Shown here one piece after another: positions 5,521 through 46,595 of a stretch of 64,000 bases of DNA. The position numbers and the translations under genes are program-made. This DNA is from Acholoe squamosa (lineage: Eukaryota; Annelida; Polychaeta; Phyllodocida; Polynoidae). The stretch covers positions 29,083,495 through 29,147,494 of the forward strand of contig OX439048.1 of assembly GCA_949317995.1 (NCBI GenBank), in the 5' to 3' direction. The number at the start of each line of letters is the position of its first letter. Within the stretch, counting starts at the first letter, position 1. The notes beneath the pieces are model-generated. The model saw nothing but the letters and a program-made list of their open reading frames with translations. It was not told the DNA's origin and did not search any database.

Positions 5521-6547
5521 TCAAGAGGGCGGACTAGACACACCACCTAGCACGCGGGGGAGAAAAAACGCAGGGTTTCTATGAAAATAAAACTTTTTAA
5601 AGTCACTTTGGAGGTACAACAACTTTTTAAAGGTACAGTACACCAACTTTGGGAAAAGTTTATGGTGAAAACCATCAATAGAAGGATTGAAAACAAATGT
5701 TAACACGTCGTAGACTGGCACATGTTGACGAAATGACAGGCCGTATTGACAGAGAAAAGGAAAAGGCTTCAAAGTCGCCTGCCAAAAGAAGATATTGGTA
5801 ATAAAAGCATGAAGGGAATACAAGAACAACTTAAAGCTATAACACAAAGGCTTGATGATTTAAAGAAGAAGGAAAATAAGGTACAAAATCAGTCGCTGAG
5901 AGTGTCACTGAATTATCAACGAGTCTTGATGCCTATACAGAGACTCAGAACCGACTTGAGTCGAAAGTTGACAGGGTTTTCTGTTATATTATTCGGCAGA
6001 ATTATCAAATTGAAAAGCTGAAAAAAAAAGATAGAAGCCCTAGAATGGGAGAAAAGAAGGCTAAATCTGGTCATAGGTGGGATTCCTGAGAAGAGGTACA
6101 AACATATGAAAGGGAAAATTGCGGCTTTATTCAATGATTTGGACTTAGATTGCGGTGTCGAAGAGGTCGACATTATATTTAGACTGGGGGCCCCACGAGA
6201 AGACGGGCGCGTTCGACCTGTCTTAGTGTGGTATATATATATATATTAAAACTATGAAACAAAAAGGTGAGGTGTTCAAACATCTAAAGAATCTGAAGGG
6301 AAACGATACGTGGAACCAAGTATTCATTAATGACGATCTATCACCTACTTATCAGAGTAAACAGAGAGACCTAAGAAGCCTAGTATCCCACATCAGAAAG
6401 GAATTAGAGAAAAAAGGTGACACGAATTCTACAGTCCAATTGAAATGCTTGAGTATTGTCCTGAATGGCACGAAATACCAGTACGAGGAAGTGGACAATC
6501 TCACCCTGGGTTTCAGGATGATGGATGCAAAAACAGTTGACGTAAAA

Positions 6548-6853
6548 GATGGGGTGGCCTTTCAAGGCTCTTTCTAACCTCTATCCAATTTCATTAGATG
6601 TGATATTGAATATACGGACTACACTTATTCATCTGCAGATGTGCTATATCAGGTAGAAAAAGCTTGGTTTCATAACTTGATGGATTTGCACAACAAAATC
6701 AAGAAGATGACAGATCCCGATGAAGCCAAAAGGGAGGGAAACCAGATTAAACAATCACCTGAGTGGCTACAGGAAGAGAGACATGCCACAATGGACATTG
6801 TCATTGACTGTAAATTTGAGCAGAGCCAGAAACATAGGAATTTCTTTCTATGA
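6548..6853 (+). other. NADAR-like domain within LINE ORF1
   Basis: In a single frame except for one stop, the region reads FQGSF, stop, PLSNF, then TYSSADVLYQVEKA, then DLHNKIKKMTDPDEAKREG, IKQSPEW and KFEQ. This order (PLSNF, SSAE-like helix, YQ..KA, EAK..G, W, KFEQ) is the NADAR/YbiA pattern. Characterised NADAR proteins remove ADP-ribose from N-glycosidically modified guanine or act on related ADP-ribose intermediates. The usual C-terminal part (Asp and WG.G) is not visible downstream in any frame, so the domain may be truncated or diverged. The residues present are the conserved N-terminal and central ones. Function in the element is inference. Confidence 0.72.
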
Positions 6854-7095
6854 CATTTCCAAGGATACTATCAGGGTTGCCAAAAAGTTAGGTATACTTT
6901 TGGTAGAATACTGAGAAGCTTATCAAATGCAGCTAGGAGAGGGGGAAGCCACTTCTCAGGCTGGAGACCTGGGGGAACTTGGACAGGTTGGAGGAGAAGG
7001 CAAAGGCGACGACGAGCAAAAAGGTGACAAAAACTTTAACTAGCAACACAACTAGGAAATTGAGTTATTAAAAATTCACCCAGAACTGAAGTCCA

Positions 7096-7736
7096 ATGGC
7101 AGCACAACATAATGCAGTTGCATTTATGGACAGTAGGGGTAGGCATTTCCAACAGTATATTGACAAAGTAAACAATGCCGGTGTCAACATTACCGCATGA
7201 TTTAGACCGGGAGCGACTGTCACTGAGTCTGCTGACAGTGCGCTGTCATACGCCATAGTAAATCCCAATGACATTATCTGATAAGTGGTGTAAATAATTA
7301 TACAACTCGCCACCCTCCACCGGCTGTAGGATTAAGGTCTTACTACACCTTCGATTGGCAATCGTCAGAAGCACTTGCCACTGCTATGGAGTGTATGTTA
7401 AAAGACATACAAGAGAAGTTTGATAAACAGGCGCCTCAGTCTACATTCATTATTATGACAGGCCTTCAACTCAATCATGTGGGTGTAAATGGAAGCGATG
7501 ATGCAAAACAGAAAATCGTGGATAATGCTACCTGGGATCTTAACCAGCGTATATATCATATCAACAGGGAACACCACCTGACCATTCCATGGCTTAGCAG
7601 ATCTGTGCACACATATCATACCCCAACGGGACGAAAGGACTTGTATAAGAAGCTCGAAGATGGTTTACACCCTTCTTTTGGTCTCCTAAAATCCTGGGCA
7701 AGATTGCTCATAAACCATGTTGAATCTCTTAATTAA
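7096..7736 (+). other. SGNH-hydrolase (esterase)-like domain of ORF1
   Basis: From 7096 the frame reads AVAFMDSRGRHF, then FRPGATVTESA, then VNPNDII, matching the first half of LINE-encoded SGNH domains (block I, then PGAT). After a frameshift near 7280 it continues GVNNYTTRHP and runs open to EDGLHPSFGLLKSWARLL, the C-terminal Asp-His block. The catalytic nucleophile position reads MDSRG rather than GDS, but the Ser is present. CR1-type ORF1 esterases are thought to aid membrane or RNP handling. Confidence 0.6.
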
Positions 7737-8251
7737 AATATCCATAGCGCGTCCGGAGAATGTTTCTTGTTATAAACAATAAGGGCATTCAATGGCTGTG
7801 CTGGCTACATACTTAGATATTCTCAAAATTGTTTTGTTAAACCTAGATTCAAGTGAGAATATCTAAGATCCCAAAAATCCATTCTAACTTTTCCGATTAA
7901 ATGCAACACAGAGAACCTACTCCTTAGGTAAAACCCTATTTCTATATCAATAATGATGTACCTCTATGATTGACAGTTGTTACTTTTTTAATTCATCACT
8001 TTGTTATTAACAATAAAGTGAGACAATATAGTGATATTGAAGATTTTTCAATTTTGTATACACTTTGTATCCCCATTACAACTTCTATACGAGTGGCGAA
8101 AGATGCCTAAGCTCTATGGAGTCAGAATATATTTTTTCCTTTTTCTTTTATTTTTATTTAGGGACTGGGGGGGGGTGGTCATGAGGTACGGCCTAGGGGG
8201 ACTCACGGGGGAAAATTAGGAGGTCATCTACTTGTTCTAGCTTGTCCTCAT
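7737..8251 (+). other. ORF1-ORF2 spacer of the LINE
   Basis: AT-rich spacer with no supported coding sequence, ending in a G-run region (8170-8215) shortly before the ORF2 start. Confidence 0.5.
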
Positions 8252-11227
8252 TTGTCTATGATAATGGATAATGATGTATTATGTCTAGGGCAAGGGCTAG
8301 TAATAACACATTTCAATATGAGAAGCGTAAGGAAAAAACATGATGATATTATAATATATCTATATGGTAAGTCTGTGGATATCTTTACCATCTCCGAGTC
8401 ATGGTTGGCAGCGAAAGATATGTCGAAGAATTTCGAGGTACCAGGTTACAATCTTTATAGAAATGACAGAGCATGGCTGAATGAAAAAGGAGAAATCAAA
8501 ACAGCTGGTGGAGTTATGACCTATGTCAGGAACGATTACATTGTCTCTGAGAATGAATATGACAACTTAAATAAATCTACAAATACCATAGAATGTCAAG
8601 TTTTAACTGCCAAAAAAGGTTATCAACGAAAATGTGTCATTGTCAATGTATATAGACCTCCAGATGGATCGAAGGATGATTTTATTACTGAAATTAAGAA
8701 TGTAGTAGAAGGGATCAAACACAAGCATCTTACCAATATTGCAGGGGCGTAGGATGCAAATTTTTATTGGGGGGGGCCCAGGGGTCTCAGTTGGGGGGCC
8801 TGCAATATTTTTATATAGGCTTATATAGGAAACCCCCTTATTATTGGGGGGCCCGGCCCCCCTGCCCCCCCCCTTTTCCTACGGCCCTGTATTGCTGTAT
8901 TGGGGGATTTCAATTTTCATTTTGGAGACAAAGAAGATGAGCAGGTACATGATTTATGTGAGACATTAAACCAGTTTGGTTACAGGAGTATCATTAAAAC
9001 AGGTACTATGAAGGATAATACATCTGTTATACTAGATCAAATATTTACTAATATTGAAGGTATTAATGAAATATTAAATATTAGTGATCATTGCCTAATA
9101 TACTGTGTTAAACCCATAGTAAAGAAAAATAAACATAAGATTAAACTATAATGTCAATAAGTTTAAGGGTGAACTGAACAAGTTTGATTGTAATAGTGTA
9201 AAAGCAATGGATGACTCCGAAGAAATCTGGAACGTGTTTGTAACTAGAACAACTACTGTCTTGGATGGAGTGTGTCCTTTTGTAGAATATACTGTTAAGG
9301 AAAGCAAGAGGGAGTGGATAACTAGAGAAATTATTGCTGAAATCAAAGAAAAAGATAGGTTATTAAAAGTTGCTAGAAAAACAGGTAACAACTATGATAG
9401 ACAACTAGCCGGTATTGCTAGACATAGAATTAAAAATGTTGTAAAGTTAGCTAGGGATACATAATGTTAATAATATTGTTGAGAACTCACGTGGTAATCA
9501 GAAGAAATTTTGGTACAACTTGAATAAAGTTTTTCCTCTTAAATCCAAAGAAAAAGCAGGTATTGTCCCTAAAGATGAACAAAATATGCTATTAGACCCA
9601 CAACAGTCAGCGACTCACATAAATGAATTCTTTAGTGGTATTGGTGTTTAGTTAGCAGAGAAATTTAATGCATGATGGTCTCCTGAACCTGGAGTAATGC
9701 CCTATCCTGTAATAGAAGATCTCGTTATAGAAAATGAGATTGTACTGAAGTATGTTAAAGATATAAATATCTCTAAATCCTCAGCAATATATGGTCTACC
9801 AACACATATACTGAAAACTATGTTTACTCATTTAATAGATAAGTACAGTCATTTATTGAGAGTTATATACCACACTGGTGTGATCCTTGATACATGGAAA
9901 ATAGCAGGAGTTATTCCAATTTTTAAATCTGGTACAAAAGATCAGGTTAACAATTACAGACCGATCTCCCTATTGCCATTACCAGGAAAGATTTTTGAAT
10001 ATGTTATACATAACCATATTTGTGCTCATCTGGAACATTTTGAAATTTTGACTAATGCACAAGGTGGATATAGAAAGGGCAGGAGGTCTACTGTTGACAC
10101 CGTGGGTAAATTTACAGACTGCATTCATATTAATAAAACCAAGTGGCTTTCACATTGGCTACATTCATAGATTTAAAAAAGGCCTTTGATACGGTCAACC
10201 ACATCATTCTTTTGAATAAGTTGAAATTCTATGGCATTCGTGGAAAAATGATAAGATTTAATTCAAAATTTCTTATTCAATAGGAAGCAATTAACTGTAG
10301 CCAATGGATATGAGTCAAGCGTGCTGGATATATCATGTGGGGTCCCTCAAGGGTCAGTGCTTGGACCGTTATTTTTCCTTCTATATGTGAATGATGTACA
10401 AAAAGTATGTACATATACCAATATTGCCCTATTTGCTTATGAAACTGTTATTGCGCAGGTAAAAATGAACAAGATGTATTCATGAAAATGCAAGAAGACT
10501 TAAACAGATATACAGAGTGGTGTTCATTAAATTGGTTGACTATTAATGACTGTAAGTATAAGGAACTATATGGTTTTCTTCCCGACATCCATGACCACAC
10601 ATAAGCTACAGTTGAATGGGCAAGAAATCCACAAAGTCCCCACTTACAAATATTTAGGTGTAAACCTGGATTCTAAATTGAATTATGAAAAGTTCATTAA
10701 AAACCAAATAACCACCATAGAGTTTAGAGCTTACCAGTTATACCGAAATGCAAGGTTCTTAAGTAATAAAACCCTATTGTTGATCTATAAAACTTTTATC
10801 TTACCAATTTTTGATTATGGTTGTGTTTTATGTCAAAAGGTATCCGTTACAAGAAATAGGAAACTTCAAAGATTACAAAACAGATGTCTTAAGATATGTC
10901 TCAAACTGGATATATCCACTGATACTGAAATGGTTCACCAAGCAGCTCACATGAATTACTTAGAGGATAGGTACTGGTACTACACAGTGATTAATGCATA
11001 CAAAAACTCTCTTGGAGGAATCAGTCGATGCAAGAATGCTGTATACAAGACAATGGGATGGAGTCAGACTCAAGCAGATAACAACCAGACTAACTTCTGT
11101 GCAAAACAGTGTTTATAGTGTATTGGCCGATACTTTGAATGCACTTCCAATAGACACAAGGAATGTCCAAACCCTAGAATTTTTTAAAAGCAAGATTAAG
11201 GATGAGCTGGTAAAGAAAGTACCATAA
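8252..11227 (+). pseudogene. LINE ORF2: APE endonuclease and reverse transcriptase
   Basis: The endonuclease runs from 8252 to about 9150, with THFNMRS, TISESWL, VNVYRPPD, GDFNFHF and SDHCLIY in order. It is split at 8742-8889 by a MITE. A frameshift near 9150 leads to the linker (EWITREIIAEIKEKDRL), and another near 9464 to the reverse transcriptase. RT landmarks are NNYRPISLLP (9950), [13 protein letters not shown] (about 10155-10205) and GVPQGSVLGPLFFLLYVND (about 10340-10395). The catalytic F-A-D-D box is replaced by FAYE (about 10430-10445), so polymerase activity is lost. The C-terminal segment ends ALPIDTRNVQTLEFFKSK, typical of CR1/L2 ORF2. At least five frame breaks are present. Confidence 0.88.
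8742..8889. mobile_element. 148-bp MITE inside the LINE endonuclease
   Basis: Begins CAGGGGCGTAGGA and ends TCCTACGGCCCTG, an imperfect 13-bp TIR. It is flanked by TATTG on both sides (8737-8741 and 8890-8894). The interior is G-run/C-run foldback. Removing the element and one TATTG copy puts the endonuclease back in frame between TNIA and VLGDFN, which independently confirms the boundaries. No coding capacity. Superfamily unclear: CAGGG termini hint at hAT, but the duplication is 5 bp. Confidence 0.88.
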
Positions 11228-16814: not shown

Positions 16815-18846
16815 ACTAATTGCTGACAAATAGTGAGTAATTACTGACATATATTGAATAGTTGCTCACAAATACTGCATTATTACCGACATAGGAGGAG
16901 GTACTGGCATATATTGACTGAATGCTGACAAAAAGTGAGTAAAATACTGACATTTATTGACTAATTGCTGACAAATTGTATGTAAATACTGACATGTGTT
17001 GACTAATTTCTGATATCAAATGACTAAATACTGACATATCCTGAATAATTGCTGACAAAGAGTGAGTAATTACTGACATATATTGACTATTTCTGATAAA
17101 TAGTCAATAATTACTGAAATATATTGACTAATTGCTGAAAAAGAGTGAGTAATTACTGACATATATTGACTAATTTCTGATAAGTTGTGAGCAATTACTG
17201 ACATATATATCGACTAATTGCTGACAAAAAGTGAGTAATTACTAATATGTATTGAATGATTGCTGACAAATAGTGAGCAGTTACTGACATATAGACTAAT
17301 TGCTGACAAATAGTGAGCAGTTACTAACATATATTGACTAAATGCTGATACAATGTAAGTAACTTCTACCATGTAATGACTAATTGCTGACAAATAGTGA
17401 ATAATTACTAACATATTTATATTAACTAATTGCTGACAAATAGTCCATATATACTGACATATTTTGACACATACCAGTCAAGGCAGGATGCACAATTGAA
17501 TCAATGGCTATTTCTCTGTTATATATTGACTAAATGCTGACAGATTGTGAGTAAATACTGACATGTATTGACAATTGCTGATATAGAGTGACTTAGTACT
17601 GACATATATTGATTAATTGCTGACAAATTGTGAGTAAAATTATACTGATATATATTGACGAATTGCTGACAAATAGTGAACAATTACTAGTGCTGACAAA
17701 TAGTGAGTAAATACTGACATATATTGATTAATTGCTGACAAATAGTGCATAATTACTGACATATATTGACAAATTGCTGACAAATAGAGAACAATTACTA
17801 ACATATTTTAACTAATTGCTGACAAATAGTCCATAGATACTGACATATTTTGACTAATATCTGACAAATTGTGAGAAAGGGAGGATGCACAATTGAATCA
17901 ATGGCTATTCCTTGGTTATATATTGACTAATTGCTGACAGATTGTGAGTAAATACTGACATGTATTGATAATTGCTGATATAGAATGACTAAGTCTTGAC
18001 GTATATTGACTAATTGCTGACAAATTGTGAGTAAATACTGACATATTTCGACTAATTGCTAACAAATGGTGAGTAATTACTAACATATATTGACTAATTG
18101 CTGATAAATGGCGAGTAATTACTGACATATATATATTGACTAATATCTGATAAATTGTGAGTAATTACTGACATACCGTAAATCCCCGGTCACAAGCCGG
18201 CCCCGGTCATAAGCCGGGGGGTGAGTTCAGGAAAAAAATAAAAGCCGGTTTTTGGGTCAAATTTTTACCATTTTCTCTTTATTCTATAGTAAAAAACCCC
18301 AGTCATAAGCCGGGGGGGGGCTTTGGGAAAAATTTAGAAGCCGGTTTGAGCCCAAAATAGAAAAAGAAAATCAGGCTTATGACCGGGGATTTACGGTATG
18401 TGGACTAAGTGTTGTTATAAGATGGAGCAGGTAAGGTCTAAGACCTAAAAGACCCGAGTTTTTAATGCAATTTTGAATGCTATTTTCAATTCAATTTTCA
18501 ATATTCAATCAGATATTGACAAATAGTGAGTGATTACTGACATATGTTGATGAACTGCTGACAAATAATGAGCAATTACTAACATGTATTGACTAATTGC
18601 TGACAAATAGTGCATTATTACTGACATATTTGGACTAATTACTGACAAAAAGTGAGTAATTACTGACAAAAAGTGAGTAATTACTAACATAAATTGGCTA
18701 ATTGCTGACAAATAGTGCATTATTACTGACATACTTGGACTAATTACTGACAAAAAGTGAGTAATTAATGACAAAAAATGAGTAATTACTAAGACAAATT
18801 GACTAATTGCTGACAAATAGTGCATTATTACTGACATATTTGCTGA
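16815..18846. repeat. 42-bp satellite array 1
   Basis: Tandem, diverged copies of a unit made of two related 21-bp halves: ATTACTGACATATATTGACT then AATTGCTGACAAATAGTGAG. Read on the minus strand the unit is 14 codons and often stop-free, giving ORFs rich in SVITHYLSAISQYM; these are repeat by-products. Near 17470 and 17880 the array contains a non-satellite phrase (GATGCACAATTGAATCAATG) that recurs in the second array. A MITE interrupts it at 18176-18396, and about 80 bp near 18410-18500 are non-satellite. Confidence 0.9.
18176..18396. mobile_element. TA-flanked MITE, CCGTAAATCCCCGG family
   Basis: Begins CCGTAAATCCCCGGTCA and ends TGACCGGGGATTTACGG, flanked by TA. The interior repeats CATAAGCCGG in both orientations. 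It sits inside a satellite unit: removing it leaves ACTGACATATGTGGACTAA, close to the satellite consensus. No coding capacity. Relatives with similar ends lie at 39594-39884 and about 60082-60546. Confidence 0.88.
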
Positions 18847-18849
18847 CAA

Positions 18850-20850
18850 TGCAAAATGCCATCCATAAAAGGGTTAACTGCACATCAATGCCTTGTCTAT
18901 CAATAAAGGGTTGACTGTGCATCAATGCATCATGCTATCCCTAAGGGGTTAACTGTGTATCAATGCATCATGCCATCCATAAAGGGTTAAGTGCATCAAT
19001 GCATCAGGTTATCCATGAAGGGTTAAAGTGCATCAATGCATCTTGCCATTCATAAAGGGTTAAATGTGCATCGATGCATCATGCCATACATAAAGGGTTA
19101 ACTGTGTATCAATGCATCATGCCACCCATAAAGGGTTAAAGTGCATCAATGCATCATGCCATTCATAAAGGGTTAAAGTGCATCAATGCATCATGCTATC
19201 CATAAAGGGTTAACTGTGCATCAATGCATCATGCGATCCATAAAGGGTTAACTGTGCATCACCGCATCATGCCACTCATAAAGGGTTAACTGTGCATCAA
19301 TGCTACATGCCATCCATAAAGGCTTAAAGTGAATCAATGAATCATGCCATTCATAAAGGGTTAAATGTGCATCAATGCATCATGCCATTCATAAAGGGTT
19401 AACCGTGTAACAATCCATCATGCCATCAATAAAGGGTTAAAGTGCATCACTGCATCATGCCATTCATAAATAGTTAACTGTGCATCAATGCATCATGGCA
19501 TTAATGAAGGCTTAAAGAGAATCAATGCATCATGCTATTCATAAAGGGTTAACTGTGTAACAATCCATCATGCTATCTATAAAGGCTTAAAGTGAATCAA
19601 TGCATCATGCCATTCATAAAGGGTTAAATGTGTATCAATCCATCATGCCACCAATAAAGTGTAAAAGTGCATCACTGCATCATTCCATTCTTAACGGGTT
19701 AAAGTGTGTCAATGCATCATGCCTTTCGTAAAGGGTTAAAGTGCATGAATGCATCATGCCTTTCATAAAAGGTTAAAGTACATCAATGCATCATGCCATT
19801 CATAAAGGGTTAACTGTGCATCAATGCATCATGCTATCCAAGAAGGGTTAACTGTGCATCAATACATCATGCCATCCATAAAGGGTTAAGGTGCATCAAT
19901 GCATCATGCCATCCATAAAGGGTTAAAGTGTGTCAATGCATCATGCCTTCCATAAAGGGTTAAAGTGCATCAATGCATCATGCCATTCATAAAGGGTTAA
20001 CTGTGCATCAATGCATCATTGTATCTATAAAGGGTTAACTGTGCATCACCACATCATGCCACCCATAAAGGGTTAAATGTGCATCAATGCTTTGTGAAAT
20101 CCATAAAGGGCTAACTGTCCATCAATGCATCATGCTATCTAAGAAGGGTTAACTGTGCATCAATGCATCATGCCATCCATAAAGGGTTAAAGTGCATCAA
20201 TGCATCATGTCATTCATAAAGGGTTAAATGTGCATCACTGCATCTTGCCATCCATGAAGGGTTAAATGTGCATTAATGCATCATGCTATCTATAAAGGGT
20301 TAGATGTGCATCAATGCATCATGCCATTCATAAAGGGTTAACTGTGTATCAATGCATCATGCCACCCATAAAGGGTTAACTGCACATCAATCCATCATGC
20401 CTTCAATAAAGGGTTAAAGTGCATCAATGCATCATGTCATTCATAAAGGGTTAACCGTGCATCAATGCATCATGCCTTTCATAAAGGGTAAAAGTGCATC
20501 AATGCATCATGCCATTTTTAAAGGGTTAAAGTGCATCAATGCATCATGCCATTCATAACGGGTTAACTGTGCATCAATGCATCACGCTATCCATAAAGGG
20601 TTAAATGTGTCTCAATGCATCATGCTATCCATAAAGGGTTAAATGTGCATCAATGCATCATGCCATTCATAAAAAGTTAAATGTGCATCAATGCTTCATG
20701 CTATCCATAAAGGGTTAAATGTGTATCAATGCATCATGCTATCTATAAAGGCTTAAAGTGAATCAATGCATCATGCCATTCATAAAGGGTTGACTGTGTA
20801 TCAATGCATCATGCCATCCATAAAGGGTTAAAGTGCATCAATGCATCATA
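18850..20850. repeat. 37/38-bp satellite array
   Basis: About 50 copies of a unit reading CCATAAAGGGTTAA, then AGTGCATCAATG or CTGTGCATCAATG, then CATCATG. The unit contains the self-complementary ATGCAT. Copies vary by single bases and small indels. It begins where the 42-bp array ends. No ORF persists. Confidence 0.92.
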
Positions 20851-22575: not shown

Positions 22576-24406
22576 TGCAATAACACTAAACATCCCTTCA
22601 TTCTATACATCAGCACAATGCAAAATATATGCTTTGTCCTGTGTGGGGCTAACCTGACAGGGTCTCTCACATTGACAAGTTTTAGTTTGTTTCTTTTACC
22701 TTAGTCGATGACCTATTACATGCATCAATGATCTACACTGGGGAAGTGGAACTCTGTCGTTTCTTTAGGCGAAACACACAATGTACTTATAGTCCCGGTC
22801 CCCACACTCAAAAATTCATTATGACACCATGTAGGGTCTGGAGTCCCAATTATATCCCCTTTCCACTGATTTCTGAGTGGAAAAAAACCTTTTGGCAAAA
22901 TCATGAATTTTTAGGACCTTAAAAGTATCCCTTTTTTCATGAAATGCGGACATATCTACAAGGCCTACCCCTTTCCATGAAAAGAAACAACAAAATTAAT
23001 AATGGACAAATTTGGATGTCATGCACTCATTTGCCTGCCAGAATTTCCACTGTCTGTGGATGAGATACATGGACAGCTGGAACTATGGTGATTTGAAGAC
23101 CCCCTTTCCATGAAGGCACATGAAAAAACACCCCCTTTCCAAGGAGGCTCGTGTATAAAAACATCCCTTTTTTGAGTTTCCACTGACTTACAAAGACTTG
23201 TAAAAGGGCCCCCTTTTCTGTGTTTTCCGTAACACACCTGGTGTCAGTGGGCATCAGTGAGTGCGGAGGGCGGGCTTATAGTATAAGTTAAACATTCTAA
23301 TACAAAAGGTTAAACTTTGCAAATAGACAGAAGATTGCCTGCCCCAAGGCTTTCCTTTTTATCAGTGAAGGTTGTGTACTTCTGTTTTAGCTCCATGGCC
23401 CTTTCGTGATGCTGTTTGATAATGTAAGAGGATCAGACTTTTCAGCTGAAGCTTCGTATAGCTCTATGATTATAATTCATTATTCACAGTAGGGAATATT
23501 GTATAGGCAAATCTCTTATGGATTCTTATGATTCTCTGAAATACTACTCTGTCTGTACTAGGAATTCCCCGCACAAAAGGAGGAAATTCAGAGTTTTGTT
23601 TGCTATGCGATGGTACTGACAGTCCAGTGACTTACAAGTAAGCATGCTGCAAGAGACCATAATACATGTGTAGGACGTCACATGTTGCAAGAACATTATA
23701 ATATGAGAAAAGCAGATTGATATGTTGTGTTGGAGGTTGGAGGGGCAGGGAATCTAGAACGGGGGCCCTATTATCTACATTTTTCAAAATTATATTCTGT
23801 ATAATACATTGTTTATAGACAGCTTTGTCCAGAGATGTAGTCAAATTTGGCTGCTGGGCAAAGGGCACATCGACCAATCTGAATTGCCTTCATTTACGAT
23901 GAAGCCCGTCTATAACAGCGAAGGTATCTCACATACCTTGACTTTCAGTTCACTTCCAAAATAGCTTCGTCTATTCCTTGACTGTAGCAAAACTTTTTGG
24001 GTATTTCTGTACATATAGGGACTTCAAAGCAACAGGGAGAGAGAAGTACAGAGGGGACAAGAGGAAAATAGGATATTGCCTTTAGCTTGTTTTTGTAGCT
24101 TTTGAGATCGCAGAAGCCTATCTTGATGTTGACAATCTCAGTGATATAATATAATTATATAGCAGACCCTAGCATTAACTTTATAGAATGTTACTGGCTG
24201 AGAAAATCCTTGGCAGAAAAAGAACTGATCCTCTGTAAGTGAATGTTCCCTTCACCTATCTCAGATAGAAAAATGGTGTATGTTGTCTAAGAATATTTTA
24301 ACAAATGGGCGATGCACATTATTTTGCTGTATGACGAGGCTTAGAACGCATAAGATGTAACAAACCTTTTGTTCCTGGTAGAATGAAATGAAAAATAACT
24401 TACAGA
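22576..24406. other. Upstream region or intron of the GPCR gene
   Basis: No coding exon recognised. Because a splice acceptor precedes the GPCR start codon, a 5' UTR exon and promoter may lie here or further upstream, but I cannot place them. Confidence 0.4.
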
Positions 24407-24426
24407 TTTCTATTTTTTATTTTCAG
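24407..24426 (+). other. Candidate 3' splice acceptor before the GPCR start
   Basis: A pyrimidine-rich tract ends in TTTTCAG at 24426, eight bases before the GPCR ATG. This fits an intron in the 5' UTR with the whole coding region in one downstream exon. Confidence 0.65.
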
Positions 24427-24434
24427 GTCTCAGG

Positions 24435-25595
24435 ATGAATGAAACGGATGTGCCCTTTCTCGCAGCCAATGGTAGCACCAGTGAGTTAATGAGCAATTAC
24501 TCCGAACCCTATCGTAGCCCAGCTCCTGATACTCAGGAAGACTATCATGACTTCTATAAGACTGCTCAGTTTGTCACCGGCATGGTCTGCTACCCCATTC
24601 TCTGTGTGGTGGGCATTGCTGGCAATGTCCTCACTCTCATTGTACTACATCACCGTAAGATGCAAACCTCCACCAATGTCTTCTTGCGGTGGTTGGCGGT
24701 GGCCGACACCATCAAACTGCTGAATGATGCCTTGTACTTTGTCAACATGGTCCTCATGTTCACCCAGCCCAAAGCCGCCAACAATATGATGGGCCACATG
24801 TACCCAGTCAGCCATTATATATTCAATGAAGCAGTATGTGTAAGTGCGTGGCTGACTGTTTCAGTAGCAGTCGAAAGATACATTTGTGTATGCCATCCAA
24901 CAAGGGCGAAGGAATGGTGTACTATCAGAAATGCCACAATTGCCAGTGCACTAGTGTTTTTCCTGATGAGTCTGATTGCTGTGCCTTCAGCTATGAGGTA
25001 CAGAGGTGTTATGGAGTACAATAATGACACCAATACAACAGAGTACAAGATAGACCTCACAGACCTGGGGCGCAACAAGCGGTTCATGGATATTTACCTA
25101 TGGACACAGAACCTGCTGCGCTCCATCATACCCTTGTTCGTTCTCATCTTCCTCAATGTACGCATCATCTGTGAACTCTACAAACAGCGCGTAAAGGGGA
25201 AGAAGATGTCATCAAGAAACCGCATTACCATGATGTTGCTGAGTGTTATCATTGTCTTCATCGTCTGCATCTTCCCTGATGCAACCATGTCAACAGTGCT
25301 CGGCTTTGGCTATGCGGATGGGAACTACCTCGAAAGGGGTATCCGTGAGATCAGTGACACTCTCTTGGCCTTCAATTCGGCAGTGAACTTTGTCATCTAC
25401 TGTGCTTGCAGCAAGCTGTTCAGGGACACATTTGTGGCTACCTTTTGCCAAGACTCAAAGAGGCCACACCATGTCGATGAGAATCAGACACGTCTCCTTT
25501 CAGAGAGGCGAGACGTTGGCCCCGCCACACCGAAGCGAGTGCTGCTGAATGGAGAGAAAGTCTCATGTGATGATGGTGCACAGACCTATGTATGA
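24435..25595 (+). CDS. Class A GPCR, FMRFamide-receptor/GPR139-like
   Basis: An intact 386-residue seven-transmembrane receptor, probably a plasma-membrane receptor for a neuropeptide. The N-terminus (1-45) has N-glycosylation sites at N2, N12 and N21. TM1 (46-71) carries GN with N64; TM2 carries LAVAD with D91; TM3 ends ERY (147-149) and is followed by CVCHP; TM5 has P233; TM6 reads CIFP (278-281) in place of CWLP; TM7 reads NFVIY (318-322) in place of NPxxY. NFVIY and the ERYICVCHP run are typical of the invertebrate FMRFamide-receptor and GPR139/142 group. Two more N-glycosylation sites (N198, N200) lie in extracellular loop 2. There is no cysteine at the usual top-of-TM3 position or in loop 2, so the standard disulfide seems absent. 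The tail (324-386) is basic and Ser/Thr-containing. The start fits the acceptor just upstream. The ligand cannot be told from sequence. Confidence 0.95.
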   Translation: MNETDVPFLAANGSTSELMSNYSEPYRSPAPDTQEDYHDFYKTAQFVTGMVCYPILCVVGIAGNVLTLIVLHHRKMQTSTNVFLRWLAVADTIKLLNDALYFVNMVLMFTQPKAANNMMGHMYPVSHYIFNEAVCVSAWLTVSVAVERYICVCHPTRAKEWCTIRNATIASALVFFLMSLIAVPSAMRYRGVMEYNNDTNTTEYKIDLTDLGRNKRFMDIYLWTQNLLRSIIPLFVLIFLNVRIICELYKQRVKGKKMSSRNRITMMLLSVIIVFIVCIFPDATMSTVLGFGYADGNYLERGIREISDTLLAFNSAVNFVIYCACSKLFRDTFVATFCQDSKRPHHVDENQTRLLSERRDVGPATPKRVLLNGEKVSCDDGAQTYV

Positions 25596-29639: not shown

Positions 29640-30320
29640 TGTCAAATGTCAATTGACAGTGTAAGTTCAACACACATTTTTTCCAGTGTAGGAAGGGTGG
29701 TAGTGGAGAGAAGCTAGACAGTGTAAGTTCAACACACATTTTCTTACAGTGTAGGAAGGGTGGTATTGGAGAGAAGCTAGACAGCGTAAGTTCAACACAC
29801 TTTTTCTACAGTGTAGGGAGGGGGGGAGAAGCAAGACAGTGTATGTTCAACACACATTTTTCACAGTGTAGGGAGGGTGGTCGGTGGTGGAGAGAAGCTA
29901 TATATTGTAATTTCAATACACATTTTTTACAGTGTAGGGAGGTCTGGTCGTGTTGGTGGAGAGAAGCTAGACAGTGTAAGTTCAACACACATTTTTACAG
30001 TGTAGGGAGGGGGGCCGTGGTGGTGGAGAGAAGCTAGACAGTGCAAGTTCAACATACTTTTTTATTGTGTAGGGAAGGGGGGGTCGGTGGTGGAGAGAAG
30101 CTATACATTGTAAGTTCAACAGACATTTTTTACAGTGTAGGCAGGGGGGTCGTGGTGGTGGAGAGAAGCTAGACAGTGCAAGTTCAACATATTTCTTTAT
30201 TGTGTAGGGAAGGGGGGGTCGGTGGTGGAGAGAAGCTATACATTGTAAGTTCAACAGACATTTTTTACAGTGTAGGGAGAGTGGTGGTGGAGATAAGCTC
30301 GACAGTGTAAGTTTATGCAT
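29640..30320. repeat. ~62-bp minisatellite
   Basis: About eleven copies, spaced 55-67 bp, of GTAAGTTCAACACACATTTT, then ACAGTGTAGGGAGGG, then GGTGGTGGAGAGAAGCTAGA. Minus-strand ORFs with repeating LHCKKCVLNL phrases are by-products of the repeat. Confidence 0.88.
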
Positions 30321-30604: not shown

Positions 30605-32520
30605 ATTGACATATTTTGACTAATTGCTGACAAATAGTGCATAATTACTGACATATAATGACTAATTGCAGAAAAATAGTGGGCAAGTGCTGACATGTTT
30701 TGAATATACCAGTCAAAGCACGATTTACAAATAAATCAATGGCTCTGAATCTTACAGACCCATATTCCTGATGGTCCCTGAGGTAGACTGCATTATATCA
30801 GCTAATGCACCAATGAATCATACTATGTACTATGCTAACATAATTTATAATGACATATGTTGGCTAATTTATTTCTGACAAATAGTGCATAGTTACTGAA
30901 ATATTCTGACTAATTATTGGCAAATAGTGACAAAGTCCTGACATATATTTACTTTTTGATGAAAAAATGTGAGTAAATACTGACATATTGACTAATTGCT
31001 GACAAAATGTATGTAAATACTGACATGTGTTGATTAATTTCTGATATATAGTGACTAAGTACTGACATATCCTGACTAATTGCTGACAAATAGTGAGTCA
31101 TCACTAACATTTATTGACTATTTGCTGACAAATAGTAAACTATTACTGATATATTTTGACTAATTACTGACAAAAAGTGAGTAATTACTATTATATAACG
31201 ACTAATTGCTGAGTAATTACTATTGTATATTGACTAATTGCTGACAAATAGTGAGCAATTACTAACATATATTGACTAATTGCTAGTGAGTAATTACTAA
31301 CATCTATTTATTGAAATGCGAGTAAATACTGACATGTATTGACTAATTGCTGCTATATAGTGAGTAATTACTGACATATATGGACTAATTGCTGACAAAT
31401 AGTGAGTAATTACTGACATATATTGACTACTTTCTGATAAATAGTGAATAATTACTGACATATATTGACTAATTGCTGACAAAGAGTGAGTAATTAGTGA
31501 CGTATACTGACTAATTTTTGACAAATTGTGAGCAATTACTGACATATTGACTAATTGCTGACAAATAGTGCAGTTACTGACATATTTTAATTAGTTGCTG
31601 ACAAATTGTGAATAATTACTGACATATTTTGACTAATTAATTACAAATAGCAACAAAGTACTGACATACATTGACTGATTGCTGACAAAATGCAAGTAAA
31701 CACTGACAAATATTAACTTATATCTGACAAATTGTGAGTAATTACTGACATAAATGAACTAATTGTTATATAGTGACTAAGTACTGGCATATATTGACTG
31801 ATTGCTGACAAAATTAATAGTAAGTAAATAGTGACATATATTTACTAATTGCTGACAAATTGTATGTAAATACCGACATGTGCTGACAAATAGTGAGTAA
31901 TTACTGACATATATTGACTATTTCTGATAAATAGTGAATAATTACTGACATAATTATATTGACTAATTTCTGACAAATTATGAGCAATTAGCTGACATAT
32001 ATCGACTAATTGCTGACAAATAGTCAGTTATTACTAATACAAATTACATTGAATAATTGCTGACAAATAGTGAGTAATTACTGACATATATTGTCGAATT
32101 ACTGACAAATAGTGAACAATTACTAACATATTGACTAACTGCTGATAAAATGTACGTAATTACTTCCATGTTTTGACTAATTTCTGACAAATAGTGAATA
32201 ATTACTAACATATATTAACTTATTGCTGATAGATAGTCCATAGATACTGATGTATTTTGACAAATACCAGTCAAGGCAAGATGCACAATTGAATTAATGG
32301 CTATTTCTCTGTTATATATTGACTATTTGCTGACAGATTGTGAGTAAATACTGACATGTATTGATAATTGTTCATATATAGTGACTAAGTACTGACATAC
32401 ATTGACTAATTGCTGACAAATTGTGAGTAAATACTGACATATTTCACCTAATTGCTAACAAATAGTGAGTAATTACTAACATATATTGATTAACCGCTGA
32501 CAAATAGTGAGTAATTACTA
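30605..32520. repeat. 42-bp satellite array 2
   Basis: Same unit as the array at 16815-18846, with alternating 21-bp halves. It also carries the non-satellite phrase at 32265-32310 (CAGTCAAGGCAAGATGCACA, then ATGGCTATTTCTCTG) found in array 1 at 17470 and 17880, so the arrays share higher-order segments and not just the unit. Confidence 0.9.
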
Positions 32521-34209: not shown

Positions 34210-35802
34210 GGATAAAGTTTGATGGGTTGGCTGTGTACTGGGTTAGTCCAAAAGGTTGAGCCCTTTAGGTGTGATGCTGCTGAGCCTGTGCATCCACCTT
34301 CTTTCCTCTTGGTCTCTCTCAGTATTACCCTCTGCAGTTTTGGGAGGGTGTTTAATGAAACTTAATACACTGATGGAGACTCCATTGTCCCAACCTAGTG
34401 GGTTCTCTGGGGGACAACAAGTAAAGTGTCTGGCTACCGTTGTGTCCTCATGGTTGTCAATGTCATACATATGACGACCCAATCTATCGAGGAGTCTCCG
34501 CTCAGTCTGTCCCACGTATTGCATGCCACAGTGTTTGCAGGTGATCGCATAAATTATATTGGCACTTTGGCAGTTTACATTGTATAGAGTTCTAAATCTT
34601 CTACCCATTGTATGTGAAGTGATATATCCTGTCTTATTGATTTTAGGGCAATATTGACAGGTATTTTTACGATTACAGGGGTATTTTAGAGTGTGGGATC
34701 TCTTTTTGGCTTGGTTAGAACTTGTAGAAGCTCTGACTAATTCGTCTTTCAGTGATTTGTTTCGACGTTTGCCAAAGATGAGTTTAGCGTCATGATAAAC
34801 CCTAGTGGCTTTGGATTTGAGCATTAGGTCCCAATTCTGTCTCACTATGTCCTCTATGGCGGGGTTAGAAGGGTTGTGTGTCATGATGCAATAGAAAGCC
34901 TTCTTCCTATCTTTAGGCTTTTCCTTAATGGTTAGTAATTTTGATCTGTCCTGAGTATCTGCTTTCATTAAGGCATTGAAAATCAGATTTTTGGGGTATC
35001 CTCTGCGTAGGAAGTGTGTGCATAGCATTAGTCCATTTCTTCTAAATTCAGAAACGGTAGAGCAAATGCGTCTAACACGTAGGAATTGAGAGTAAGGGAT
35101 ACCCAGTAAGGTGTGTCGGGGGTGTTCAGAAGAGAACAGGAGGTAGTTGTGACTGTCAGTAGGTTTACAGTATAGGGTGGTCTCTATCTGTCCCACTGGA
35201 TTTAAACGGACCGTAATGTCCAGAAAGTTGATCCCAGTGGTGGAGTGTTCTAAAGTGAATTTGATGCTCTTATGTCAGTCATTTAGATGTCTGACGAATT
35301 TTAGCAACTCGTCAAGTCCATGGGTCCAAATCAGGAAGATATCATCTATATATCGTTTCCAAAAGAAAGGTGCTGGACGATAAGTGTACACATATTTGTC
35401 TTCGAAACTGCCCATAAATATATTAGCGTAAGAAGGTGCTAGTTTCATACCCATGGCGGTGCCACTGATTTGTAAAAAGTGTTTATTGTCAAACTCAAAA
35501 TTGTTACATGTCAGAACAAGCTTTAGTAGCTTAGTTATGGAGTGGTTTGTGGGTTTTTTATTCGGGTGCCTGTTGTCAGACAGTGTTCTGCCTACTGCAT
35601 CAATCCCCTCAGCAGTTGGGATATTTGTGTAGAGGCTTGTGACATCCAAAGTGGCCAGAATGGTACCTTCTGGTAGATTTAGGTCTTTTATTTTGTTTAG
35701 GAAGTCTGTACTGTCTCTCAGGTGGGATTTTAAGTTACCAACCAGGGGTTGCAGAAAGTGATCTACTAATTGAGAAATTCGCTCAGTGGGGCAACCATTG
35801 GC
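34210..35802 (-). mobile_element. 5'-truncated Penelope-like element
   Basis: Minus-strand sequence encoding a Penelope-type reverse transcriptase followed by a GIY-YIG endonuclease. The 5' end is cut off near 35802 inside the RT coding region, directly at a palindrome (35775-35821). The 3' end is uncertain; related sequence may continue towards 33990. Confidence 0.9.
34243..35801 (-). pseudogene. Penelope-like RT/GIY-YIG polyprotein, partial
   Basis: The frame starts within the RT at CPTERISQLVDHFLQPL. It continues with DVTSLYTNIPTAEGI (motif A), GTAMGMKLAPSYANIF (motif B) and RYIDDIF (motif C, both Asp intact). A TGA near 35275 interrupts HLND and HKSIKF, in the same frame. Downstream come CQYCPKI, a Cys pair typical ahead of the nuclease, then IYAITCKHCGMQYVGQTERR, the GIY-YIG core, and a C-terminus ending near SSITPKGLNLLD. 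The RT N-terminal motifs are missing through truncation; apart from that one stop the frame is open. Confidence 0.92.
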
Positions 35803-35821
35803 TGCCCCACTGAGCGAATTT
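35775..35821. repeat. Palindrome at the truncated 5' end of the Penelope-like element
   Basis: A 19-bp arm AAATTCGCTCAGTGGGGCA (35775-35793) is repeated exactly in reverse complement at 35803-35821 across a 9-bp spacer. The left arm is RT coding sequence; the right arm is an inverted copy of it followed by unrelated DNA. Confidence 0.9.
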
Positions 35822-35929
35822 TTTGGAATAAAATGACAGGTGATCCAAGGATCTCCCGGCTAATAAAGATGTTTTGGGTCTATGATACCAACTTAGCGAT
35901 ACTGTAGGCCTATTAAGCGTTGTTTTCAG

Positions 35930-43162: not shown

Positions 43163-44620
43163 TGTTGGAGGGGTATTTGTTTCAGCATCCATACAGAAAA
43201 CCTTTATCCCTCCATAGACAATGGATGCTATATCCCCCAAAATATGCCAAGCCCCATTTTATTTTTATTGATCCCCCCCTGGAAACCCTTTCCCCCGGGG
43301 GTTATTTCCTGTTGGATGTTTTAAGATTCTATGGCAAAGGGATTGGTTACCTTTATACTACTACTGTTTTATCCCTCCATGCCCAAAATCATTTACCCCT
43401 CCACAGATTGGAGGGATAAAATAGTAGTAGTATAACCCATCCACCAACTTAAAACATCCATGGGGGGAAAACACCCCCCTTGGGAAAGGGTTTCCAGGGG
43501 GGACAAATAAAGAAAAACAGGGGCTTGGAACTTTTTGGGGTTTACAATCTTGGTAGCGCAGTTTTATTCATCTGGAGGGGTATTTGTTTTAGCATCCATA
43601 TAGAAAACTTTTATTCCTCCATAGATAATGGATGCTATATCCCCCAAAATATGCCAAGCCCCATTTTATTTTTATTGATCCCCCTGGAAACCCTTTCCCC
43701 AGGGGTTATTTCCCTTGAATGTTTTAAGATTCTATGGCAAAAGGGATTGGTTACCTTTATACTACTACTGTTTTATCCCACCATGCCAAAAACTTTTACC
43801 TCTCCACAGATTGGAGGGATAAAACAGTAGTAATATAACCCATCCACCATAAGATAGGAACTTAAAACATCCATGGGGGGAAAACACCCCCTTGGGGAAA
43901 GGGTTTCCAGGGGGGACAAATAAAGAAAAATAGGGGCTAGGAACATTTTGGGGTTTACAATCTTGGTAGCGCAGCTTTATTCATCTGGAGGGGTATTGTT
44001 TTAGCATCCATATAGAAAACTTTTATCCCTCCATAGATAATGGATGCTATATCCCCCAAAATATGCCAAGCCCCATTTTATTTTTATTGATCCCCCCTGG
44101 AAACCCTTTCCCCAGGGGTTATTTCCCCTTGAATGTTTTAAGATTCTATGGCAAAAGGGATTGGTTACCTTTATACTACTACTGTTTTATCCCACCATGC
44201 CAAAAACTTTTACCCCTCCACAGATTGGAGGGATAAAACAGTAGTAGTGTAACCCATCCACCATAAGATAGGAACTTAAAACAGCCATGGGGAAAAACAC
44301 CCCCCCCCCTTGGGGAAAGGGTTTCCAGGGGGGACTAAAAAAGAAAAACAGGGGCTTGGAACATTTTGGGGTTTACAATCTTGGGCAGCTTTATTCATCA
44401 GGAGGGGTATTTGTTTTAGCATCCATATAGAAAACTTTTACCCCTCCACAGACAATGGATGCTATACCCCTCAAAATATACCAAGCCCCATTTTATTTTT
44501 ATTGATCCCTGCTGGGTGTCTGTAATGGAATAAAGGGCATCTCTATATTTCTGGCATATACTGGAAATATCCCAAAATATGGGAAAATTGCCTTTATTCC
44601 ATTACCGATCCCCCTAAACA
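43163..44620. repeat. ~410-bp tandem repeat, about three and a half copies
   Basis: ATGGATGCTATATCCCCC recurs at 43221, 43628, 44040 and (diverged) 44455. Each unit has a hairpin: TACTACTACTGTTTTATCCC near the middle is mirrored by GGGATAAAACAGTAGTAGTA about 50 bp later. CTGGAAACCCTTTCCCC likewise faces GGGGAAAGGGTTTCCAG. Short ORFs repeat with the unit and are not genes. Confidence 0.9.
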
Positions 44621-45150: not shown

Positions 45151-45510
45151 TCACCAATCTAAATACAAATGGTCAGTTGATAGATGCCAAAAGGGAAGGC
45201 AACCCTGTGAAAAACATTCTATCCTACAGTCCTTAGTTCCATGGAAAAAGGCCGTTTGATACAAATAGGTTCCATATTTTTCATTCAACCCAACTTTTTT
45301 ATAAGACACTAAAAAGTAACCTTCTAAGTCTACCAGGGCATTGGGTATCCTCCCATGCAACCATGTTTCTGAAATAGAAAGACAGTCAATATCAGCATTA
45401 TCAAATTCCAGCCTAAGTTTAATAATATTACTGGGAATGCTACATACATTCATGTGACAAACCGAGATACCTCTGATGTCACCAAAAAACTCATTAGTCA
45501 TTTGAGTCAA
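45151..45510 (-). pseudogene. LINE endonuclease fragment
   Basis: Minus-strand reading VCHMNVCSIPSNIIKLR, then DIDCLSISETWLHG, then LVDLEGYFLVSYKK. This is the N-terminal part of an APE-type endonuclease of CR1/L2 style (Asn block, then SETWL Glu block). Frame quality falls after 45250, and no RT follows, so it is a truncated copy. Differs from the LINE at 5.5-11.7 kb. Confidence 0.75.
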
Positions 45511-46595
45511 AAACCATCAACATCATTGACACCCCCATTCTGTGCCCGGCCAGAGCATCACCCTCAAAGGTCCTCCAACCCCCCAGCCCACCCCAGGGAC
45601 TACCCCAACATATTTTCAAAAGGCAAAATAGTCCATGATACTCGCATGTAGTGCTCATCATGGTATCTTAGTACAGCTAGAGAAATGTGAGATCAAGGGT
45701 GCTTTCTCCTGACAAGATAATTATAATAACTCATATATATGGAGAGAAAACAGGTTATTAGGGATAGCTATCTGTTGGTGAAACGTATAGAAAAGTCAGT
45801 AAGACTAAGAGAATAATTGAACACATTGGACATGTGAGCAACAAAAGATATGACATATGTGAAGTATAGCTCACATAGCCATTATCAGCTGGGGGCCGCC
45901 ATTAGACCCCGACGGCACTATGACTAACACCTTCAGCCCCCGACTCCGCAGTATATGCCAGGGATGCCTCCCATTGGTCAATAATACAATAGCCATGTGC
46001 CGTATAGCATGTATAGGAACAGAAAACATGAAAGGATAATTGTTAGACTGGGTATATGTACACCCACAATCAAATATTGGTATGAAAATCAGAAAATCAA
46101 TAGAACTATCTTGAATACAACAATTGAAATCGGTTGTACCAGTAGGAATGCATAATTATATATTGGACAGTCGCCATGGCTGATCTGAACATAAATTATT
46201 CAAATGCCACGCCAAAAAACATTGTGATAGTGTTATCAGCTCGGCTAGAAACTGCAACTCCTTTGACCCAGAGTCACTTAGAGACCTAAGAAAAATGCGC
46301 AGGTATCCTGACCAACCCTATTTCTCTTCTTTTTTTTTAGATTAGGCCCTTTTCGGCTTTCCCCTACTTTAAGTCGCCAAAGAATCATTAAGTCTTTAAA
46401 ACATCTTAAAGGCTACTTAAAATCAAGGTTGTTTGAAAAAAAGTGGAATTTCAATGAAGCAAACGGAATGCATATTTGTTTCTATGTACTGGGAGTGATA
46501 TAGAAAGGAAAACTGCCTATCATGGTATTAATGCTGAAAGAATATGATTTCATTGCTGAAGAAGGGTCATCTTCATTGTGATAAGTATTCACTGA
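45511..46595. other. Intergenic, nothing firm
   Basis: No gene recognised. A dispersed-motif fragment (CCTGACCAACCCTATT) lies near 46308. Confidence 0.4.

Follow-up and report, generated by a model that had tools for sequence, protein, structure and literature searches.

The window analysed here, 64,000 nucleotides of an Acholoe squamosa contig (OX439048.1, positions 29,083,495 to 29,147,494), holds a broken long interspersed element (LINE) on the + strand at about 5700-11200, in whose first open reading frame (ORF1) a first-pass annotation had recognized a NADAR-type domain. The name NADAR is said to stem from De Souza and Aravind in 2012. Judged from its sequence, the element is a dead LINE copy with an ORF1 of the L1-ORF1p type that carries a NADAR domain on its C-terminal side, a separate SGNH-like ORF and an endonuclease-reverse transcriptase (RT) ORF. 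ORF1 is split over frames. Its N-terminal coiled-coil-like part (5697..6009), read by translation, is broken by frameshifts and stops, and the coiled coil is assigned from relatives, namely a helix at residues 52-134 in the model of the related protein P0001 and sub-cut-off matches to coiled-coil families in the ORF1s of loci L015 and L020. An L1-ORF1p-like segment of RNA recognition motif (RRM) and C-terminal domain (CTD) follows in two frames (6010..6538), detected in the read-through with a profile of related ORF1s (E 5e-39, 124 bits), and the whole ORF1 read-through retrieves P0001 (E 1.4e-30; 33% BLASTP identity over 287 columns, NADAR included). The N-terminal two thirds of the NADAR domain occupy 6548..6850 and run into a deletion site at 6849..6850, behind which lie a remnant of the NADAR C-terminus ending in LGILLVEY (6852..6911, identified by comparing the frame translation with LGKLLVEYREAY of L032) and, in the same frame, an acidic C-terminal tail of ORF1 (6912..7040), similar to the tail that ends ORF1 in L032 and L033. 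The SGNH-like ORF, broken in this copy, covers 7096..7736.

ORF2 of the window element consists of an endonuclease part (8303..9148) and a broken RT part (9676..11118). Its Pfam matches are weak and below cut-off (Exo_endo_phos_2 on 8882-9148, E 0.009; RVT_1 on 9676-10167, E 7.7e-4), and Pfam gave no match on 8303-8749, though this segment reads like the start of a LINE endonuclease. The parts nevertheless come in the right order for a LINE, with ORF1 followed by endonuclease and RT on one strand. The endonuclease part is interrupted by a short insert at 8742-8889 with 13-nucleotide, near-complementary inverted ends, like a small DNA transposon, of which no second copy was found within the window.

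The + frame of the NADAR segment is open over 6227-6853 but for one stop at 6575-6577, and PLSNF, TYSSAD, LYQVEKA, DPDEAKREG, SPEW and KFEQ occur in it in that order, so that translation bears out the first-pass reading. The profile search proposed at that stage gave a PF08719 match on 6578-6853 above the curated cut-off (E 3.7e-9, 37.5 versus 35.1 bits), covering profile positions 29-111 of 163. An ORF1-NADAR profile of 66 proteins scored 53 bits on the segment (E 9e-17, profile positions 1-98 of 150), and the second-best of the six frames of the window reached 0.3 bits, below the inclusion threshold. On the strength of both profiles and of the NADAR matches in family copies, a chance match was rejected. 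The alternative reading 'LSNLYP', seen in a different frame around 6563-6600, was dismissed as coincidental, since relatives align there with the NADAR frame and without gaps. The C-terminal WG.G part, already noted as not visible, is missing because 76 nucleotides are absent after 6849 relative to L030, L032 and L034, a lesion of the window copy that takes away the LYEAS/LYEAT glutamate together with the [GA]CG motif, and thereby the catalytic Glu region, and shifts the frame; the six family copies that were read have KHFGCG, KHFACG or KYFACG at the WG.G place. A PDB search with the 91-residue window piece returned no matches, and two scans of viral contigs, one using the ORF1 profile and one the window CTD, found no relatives. 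A protein search with a mixed alignment, in which the best 7995 candidates by shared words were scored, retrieved a single protein, a ribA/ribD-fused NADAR.

Besides itself, window DNA 6254-6853 has matches at 17 distinct places in the same genome (L037 and L039 being one place), eight of them over no more than the first 145 bases. A NADAR profile match is present in 15 of the 17 (not in L035 and L046; L044 covers 43 positions only), and an SGNH-like frame in 14 (not in L035, L046 and L047). L032 and L033, 75% identical in DNA, each contain an open 490-residue frame with RRM-CTD and a full NADAR (83.8 bits with PF08719 for the L032 ORF1), and L040, L042 and L045 have a near-complete NADAR and the RRM-CTD in a single open frame. 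The broken state of the window copy and its incomplete NADAR might suggest that the segment is a chance or copy-specific insertion; we give this explanation virtually no credence in view of the matches in the family, the in-frame union with RRM-CTD in these five loci, and the NADAR found in all 20 hand-picked loci of other groups described below. Intact family members, whose lack of the segment had been named as possible counter-evidence, instead retain RRM-CTD-NADAR in one frame, which places the domain within a LINE ORF1, and a copy-specific insertion is refuted by the NADAR of the family copies. The proposed location between RRM and SGNH inside ORF1 held on one side only: NADAR follows RRM-CTD, but the SGNH-like segment is a separate open frame of 223 residues starting 17 nucleotides after ORF1 in L032 and of 218 residues starting 32 nucleotides after it in L033 (79.1% and 77.7% identical to the SGNH-like part of the window). 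We therefore rejected an SGNH domain inside ORF1 for the window family, and NADAR comes to lie near the C-terminal end of ORF1.

A PF08719 search of the 1.48-Gb genome yielded 3224 first-look candidates; 150 were scored, all of which exceed the cut-off. From these matches, 20 loci of 9.9 kb were hand-picked, for long open frames and differing lengths and not at random, and L001-L008 were examined as 3.4-kb loci. The analysis thus covers one genome in detail, together with database proteins. Every hand-picked locus has a NADAR ORF1 followed by a same-strand ORF with an RT motif, and each of the seven ORF2s scanned with Pfam gave RVT_1 (E 9e-16 to 1e-40) and endonuclease matches. The order predicted for intact copies (RRM, NADAR, SGNH, endonuclease, RT) is recovered in related elements as RRM-CTD-NADAR and then the RT ORF, with the endonuclease seen in the seven scanned ORF2s; an SGNH domain within the same ORF1 is not supported, given the separate frame in L032 and L033.

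RT motif and tree divide the hand-picked loci into six groups: A (L009-L014, L028), B (L015-L018), C (L019, L024), D (L020, L021), E (L022, L023, L027) and F (L025, L026), the tree holding 16 of the 20 and the other four being placed by motif or ORF1. Of these groups, B alone carries a reference name. In a comparison with human L1 ORF2p that covered A, B and E, type B (L015) aligns over about 880 residues, endonuclease included (353 bits), whereas the alignment of types A and E is confined to the RT part (95 and 76 bits). The RRM-CTD profile was found in the tested ORF1s of B, C, D, E and F and in the window, for L027 only in a second round; it did not match the three type A ORF1s tested. Type A has ORF1 frames of 566-777 residues with NADAR and an RT motif, GVLQGGVLSPKLFN, unlike that of the other groups. 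The window element has the motif GVPQGSVLGPLF, which we take to be typical of the CR1/L2 members of the Jockey superfamily. Its RT stands beside type D (L020/L021) in the RT tree at 41-42% identity, with support of 94/98, just under the starred level of the tool, on a long branch of the kind for which the tool warns that joins may be false; with 19-22% identity to type B, it falls outside the L1/Tx1 group.

In the NADAR tree (33 rows) each LINE type forms one clade. The deep branches are open, and the number of NADAR captures is therefore undecided; the placement of the window is unsure. Type B adjoins L001 and L002, with support of 91/93, below the starred level. These two loci (L001, G000:C17:9901769-9902218, - strand; L002, G000:C14:682108-682554, - strand) are the top two NADAR matches, at 183.8 and 169.3 bits, and resemble free-standing NADAR genes that encode about 200 residues, which makes them candidate host enzymes; no other open frame of at least 200 residues and no RT motif was seen in their 3.4-kb loci.

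The SGNH label of the window-family ORF is putative and draws on a sub-cut-off Lipase_GDSL_2 match to the window read-through (E 0.002, 19.1 bits versus a cut-off of 32.9) and on motifs: by eye, DSRG and GVNN are present in the frames of L032, L033, L042 and L045, and DGLHP in three of them. Pfam gave no match at E 0.01 on the SGNH-like ORFs of L032 and L045, a PDB search with the SGNH read-through found no hydrolase, and a single-sequence model of the piece had a mean predicted local distance difference test score (pLDDT) of 51. The middle ORFs of type C, L006 and L008 are without the Ser and His motifs. In type A, ORF1 (read in L009) runs on in frame for about 200 residues past NADAR, and this extension has an SGNH-like motif (IIGNSNARG), a weak SASA match (E 0.072) and no clear likeness to the other SGNH-like ORFs. 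Type E has a middle ORF of 240 residues between the NADAR ORF1 and ORF2 (L022:3302-4021, L023:3263-3982), with a weak, sub-cut-off match to NarE (E 0.0011), presumably an ADP-ribosyltransferase family, and very weak likeness to the SGNH-like ORFs.

The active site was mapped on the solved NADAR 8bau, whose numbering fits that of PMC11543638 with an offset of two. The database set comprised 77 proteins, of which 11 without a near-complete NADAR were left out (in nine the domain begins but breaks off or is lost; P0074 and P0077 have none), leaving 66. Contigs given for P0001-P0075 measure no more than 5.4 Mb, as against 54-116 Mb for those from which the own-genome loci were taken. The own-genome set comprised 25 ORF1s from the six RT groups and L004-L008, L003 being left out as split by a stop. 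E43, W89 and E125 are kept in all 25 own-genome ORF1s, K75 in 23, D130 in 21 and W133 in 17, and K50 is Lys in 19 and Arg in six. Among the 66 database proteins, W89, E125 and W133 are kept in all, E43, K75 and D130 in 65, and the K50 position is Arg in 58 and Lys in six. Replacement of the acid at the E125 position with Ala or Asn is reported to abolish efficient activity (PMC11543638). In addition, the predicted structure of the related protein P0001 has the fold of solved NADARs, and its RRM-CTD part agrees with the L1-ORF1p type.

Purifying selection on NADAR is clear in several groups, where the proportion of synonymous differences (pS) is unsaturated or that of nonsynonymous differences (pN) is low; counts were made by script after Nei-Gojobori, and the Fisher tests treat sites as independent. 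In type C (L019 versus L024), NADAR has a saturated pS of 0.84 and a pN of 0.061, compared with a pN of 0.121 in RRM-CTD, 0.155 in ORF2 and 0.221 in the middle ORF, and is slower than each of them (Fisher p 0.006, 3.7e-7 and 4e-11, respectively). Type D (L020 versus L021) gave synonymous and nonsynonymous rates (dS and dN) of 0.67 and 0.017, and type B (L015 versus L018) eight synonymous and two nonsynonymous changes. In type A (L009 versus L012), NADAR has five synonymous and no nonsynonymous changes, where the N-terminal part has about 20 and 27, respectively (p 0.02). Within the window family, L040 versus L042 gave a dS of 0.49 and a dN of 0.066 in NADAR, with RRM-CTD more constrained (dN 0.034), and L032 differs from L040 or L042 by a pN of 0.29 in NADAR and RRM-CTD alike. 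For types F and E and for L006 versus L008, we make no statement on selection because pS is saturated and NADAR pN is 0.31-0.39. Of the two groups in which NADAR was compared with ORF2, it is slower in C but not in F.

The whole NADAR of intact relatives, being under selection, suggests that LINEs use the domain. The reading that we favor, and to which we give about even chances, is that a NADAR tethered to ORF1p acts as a local eraser of ADP-ribose on guanine of LINE RNA or complementary DNA (cDNA). ORF1p, which coats the element RNA, would bring the tethered NADAR to the RNA or the new cDNA, where it would take ADP-ribose off guanine bases, and the template would stay readable when host or other ADP-ribosyltransferases mark LINE nucleic acid. 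NADARs have been reported to remove ADP-ribose from guanine in DNA (PMC11543638) and in RNA (PMC11833690), and a guanine-N2 DNA ADP-ribosyltransferase, CARP-1, has been reported from clams (PMC11209040); its mark is of the kind removed by NADARs, which makes the question testable.

Several observations weigh against an eraser. The window copy itself has lost the catalytic Glu/Asp of the E125 position with the deleted segment and has Asp at the E43 position. Among its relatives, the 66 database proteins do not keep the ADP-ribose contacts R79, Y84 and R93 of 8bau. Of the 25 own-genome ORF1s, many of them near-identical copies, eight have a residue other than Trp at the W133 position, and the six window-family copies read have Phe there; in types D and F, the D130 position holds another residue. 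In type F, moreover, NADAR changes no more slowly than ORF2 (pN 0.32 versus 0.28). According to PMC11543638, Ala at the E43 position of the E. coli C7 NADAR has a minor effect in vitro, while Gln inactivates, and a K-to-R change at the K50 position works in vitro but does not rescue cells from the toxin. The loss of the three contacts and the variation of W133 among LINE groups would also fit a NADAR retained as a non-catalytic module that binds ADP-ribose or nucleic acid, accessory to RRM-CTD, in line with the role in binding transcripts that is proposed for the RRM, esterase and CCHC parts of ORF1s (PMC4120745). A pure scaffold should not need both acidic residues at the distal ribose, however, and these are kept in 25 of 25 own-genome ORF1s and 65 to 66 of 66 database proteins; we consider a mere binding module improbable.

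It also seems rather unlikely, if less so, that the target of the ORF1 NADAR is not LINE nucleic acid but the ADP-ribose signalling of the host, be it free ADP-ribose derivatives or the ADP-ribose that PARPs make at the nicks where the element integrates. PARP1 and PARP2 act at L1 integration sites, and L1 mobility is said to be lower without them (reviewed in PMC8535693); viral NADARs have been proposed to target soluble ADP-ribose derivatives or host modification (PMC9503650). That the domain is joined to an RNA-binding ORF1p would argue instead for a target in the ribonucleoprotein, and the NADARs tested in PMC11833690 were inactive on RNA ADP-ribosylated at phosphate ends, being apparently specific for guanosine-ADP-ribose. 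E. coli YbiA is among the closest solved relatives, and NADARs have been described as acting on riboflavin biosynthesis intermediates (PMC9503650), so that a YbiA-like N-glycosidase acting on small metabolites, e.g., riboflavin precursors, might be considered; we hold this to be very improbable, as it is hard to see why LINEs of six RT groups would attach a metabolic enzyme to the protein that coats their RNA.

Should the LINE NADAR prove to be an active eraser, the ADP-ribosylation of nucleic acid from retrotransposons would be of consequence in these animals. It is tempting to speculate, and only tentatively, that NADAR is a general LINE tool of some animals, gained repeatedly or passed on by ORF1 exchange among at least six RT groups in one genome (one of them L1-like and the others not) and kept as an eraser of ADP-ribose on nucleic acid. 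This would imply a layer of genome defence not recognized so far, in which animals ADP-ribosylate guanines of retrotransposon RNA or cDNA. What makes the system interesting is that many LINE copies encode their RNA-coating protein as a fusion with NADAR, the active-site acids being conserved and several groups showing purifying selection.

Other features of the window are an open 398-residue frame of a rhodopsin-type seven-transmembrane receptor (24399-25595, + strand; 7tm_1, E 1.8e-29) and, on the - strand at 34243-35859, a reverse transcriptase followed by a GIY-YIG domain (RVT_1, E 1e-8; GIY-YIG, E 1.3e-4), an order that we take to be Penelope-like. A 121-residue frame at 45151-45516 (- strand) resembles the start of a LINE endonuclease (SISETWLHGR); Pfam matched nothing in it at E 0.01. 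Tandem repeats with units of 21 to 414 bp form long arrays at 16815-20849, 29826-30313, 31210-32237, 43166-44509 and 50649-51971, and searches of the window for tRNAs and, at gathering level, for Rfam families gave no match.

Among known systems, human LINE-1 ORF1p (2yko/2ykp) shares a sequence identity of only 13-14% and, to our knowledge, carries no NADAR. The NADAR of Phytophthora nicotianae var. parasitica (8bau) and E. coli YbiA (2b3w) are stand-alone proteins, with no RNA-chaperone fusion, and the roles of eukaryotic NADARs, animals included, were called unclear in 2024 (PMC11125620). The esterase ORF1s of vertebrate L2/CR1 elements (PMC4120745) likewise have an esterase-type domain 5' of the endonuclease, whereas in the window family a separate putative SGNH ORF follows a NADAR ORF1; Table 1 of that paper lists no NADAR. 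A retrotransposon-captured NADAR is likewise described in a Gypsy lineage of Ectocarpus (PMC12477816), but in a long terminal repeat retrotransposon, with the domain in Pol and, per its authors, almost only bacterial matches. The first-pass annotation knew of no described LINE with this architecture, without ruling one out; in part it had been described, since several Tx1 families of Crassostrea gigas in Repbase appear to carry a YbiA-family NADAR in ORF1, its role being called unclear (PMC12477816, Genome Biol 2025). The passages of PMC12477816 on these elements name no LINE group besides Tx1, and our literature search, mostly of open papers and without Repbase, found among the papers listed no other one with NADAR in LINE ORF1s, none on LINE groups beyond Tx1, and none on how the domain folds together with ORF1p or on selection acting on it. 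With their L1-superfamily ORF2, the type B elements (L015-L018) are probably of the C. gigas Tx1 kind; the window element shares with Tx1 the NADAR in a LINE ORF1 but differs from it in its RT, which is not of type B and comes closer to type D.
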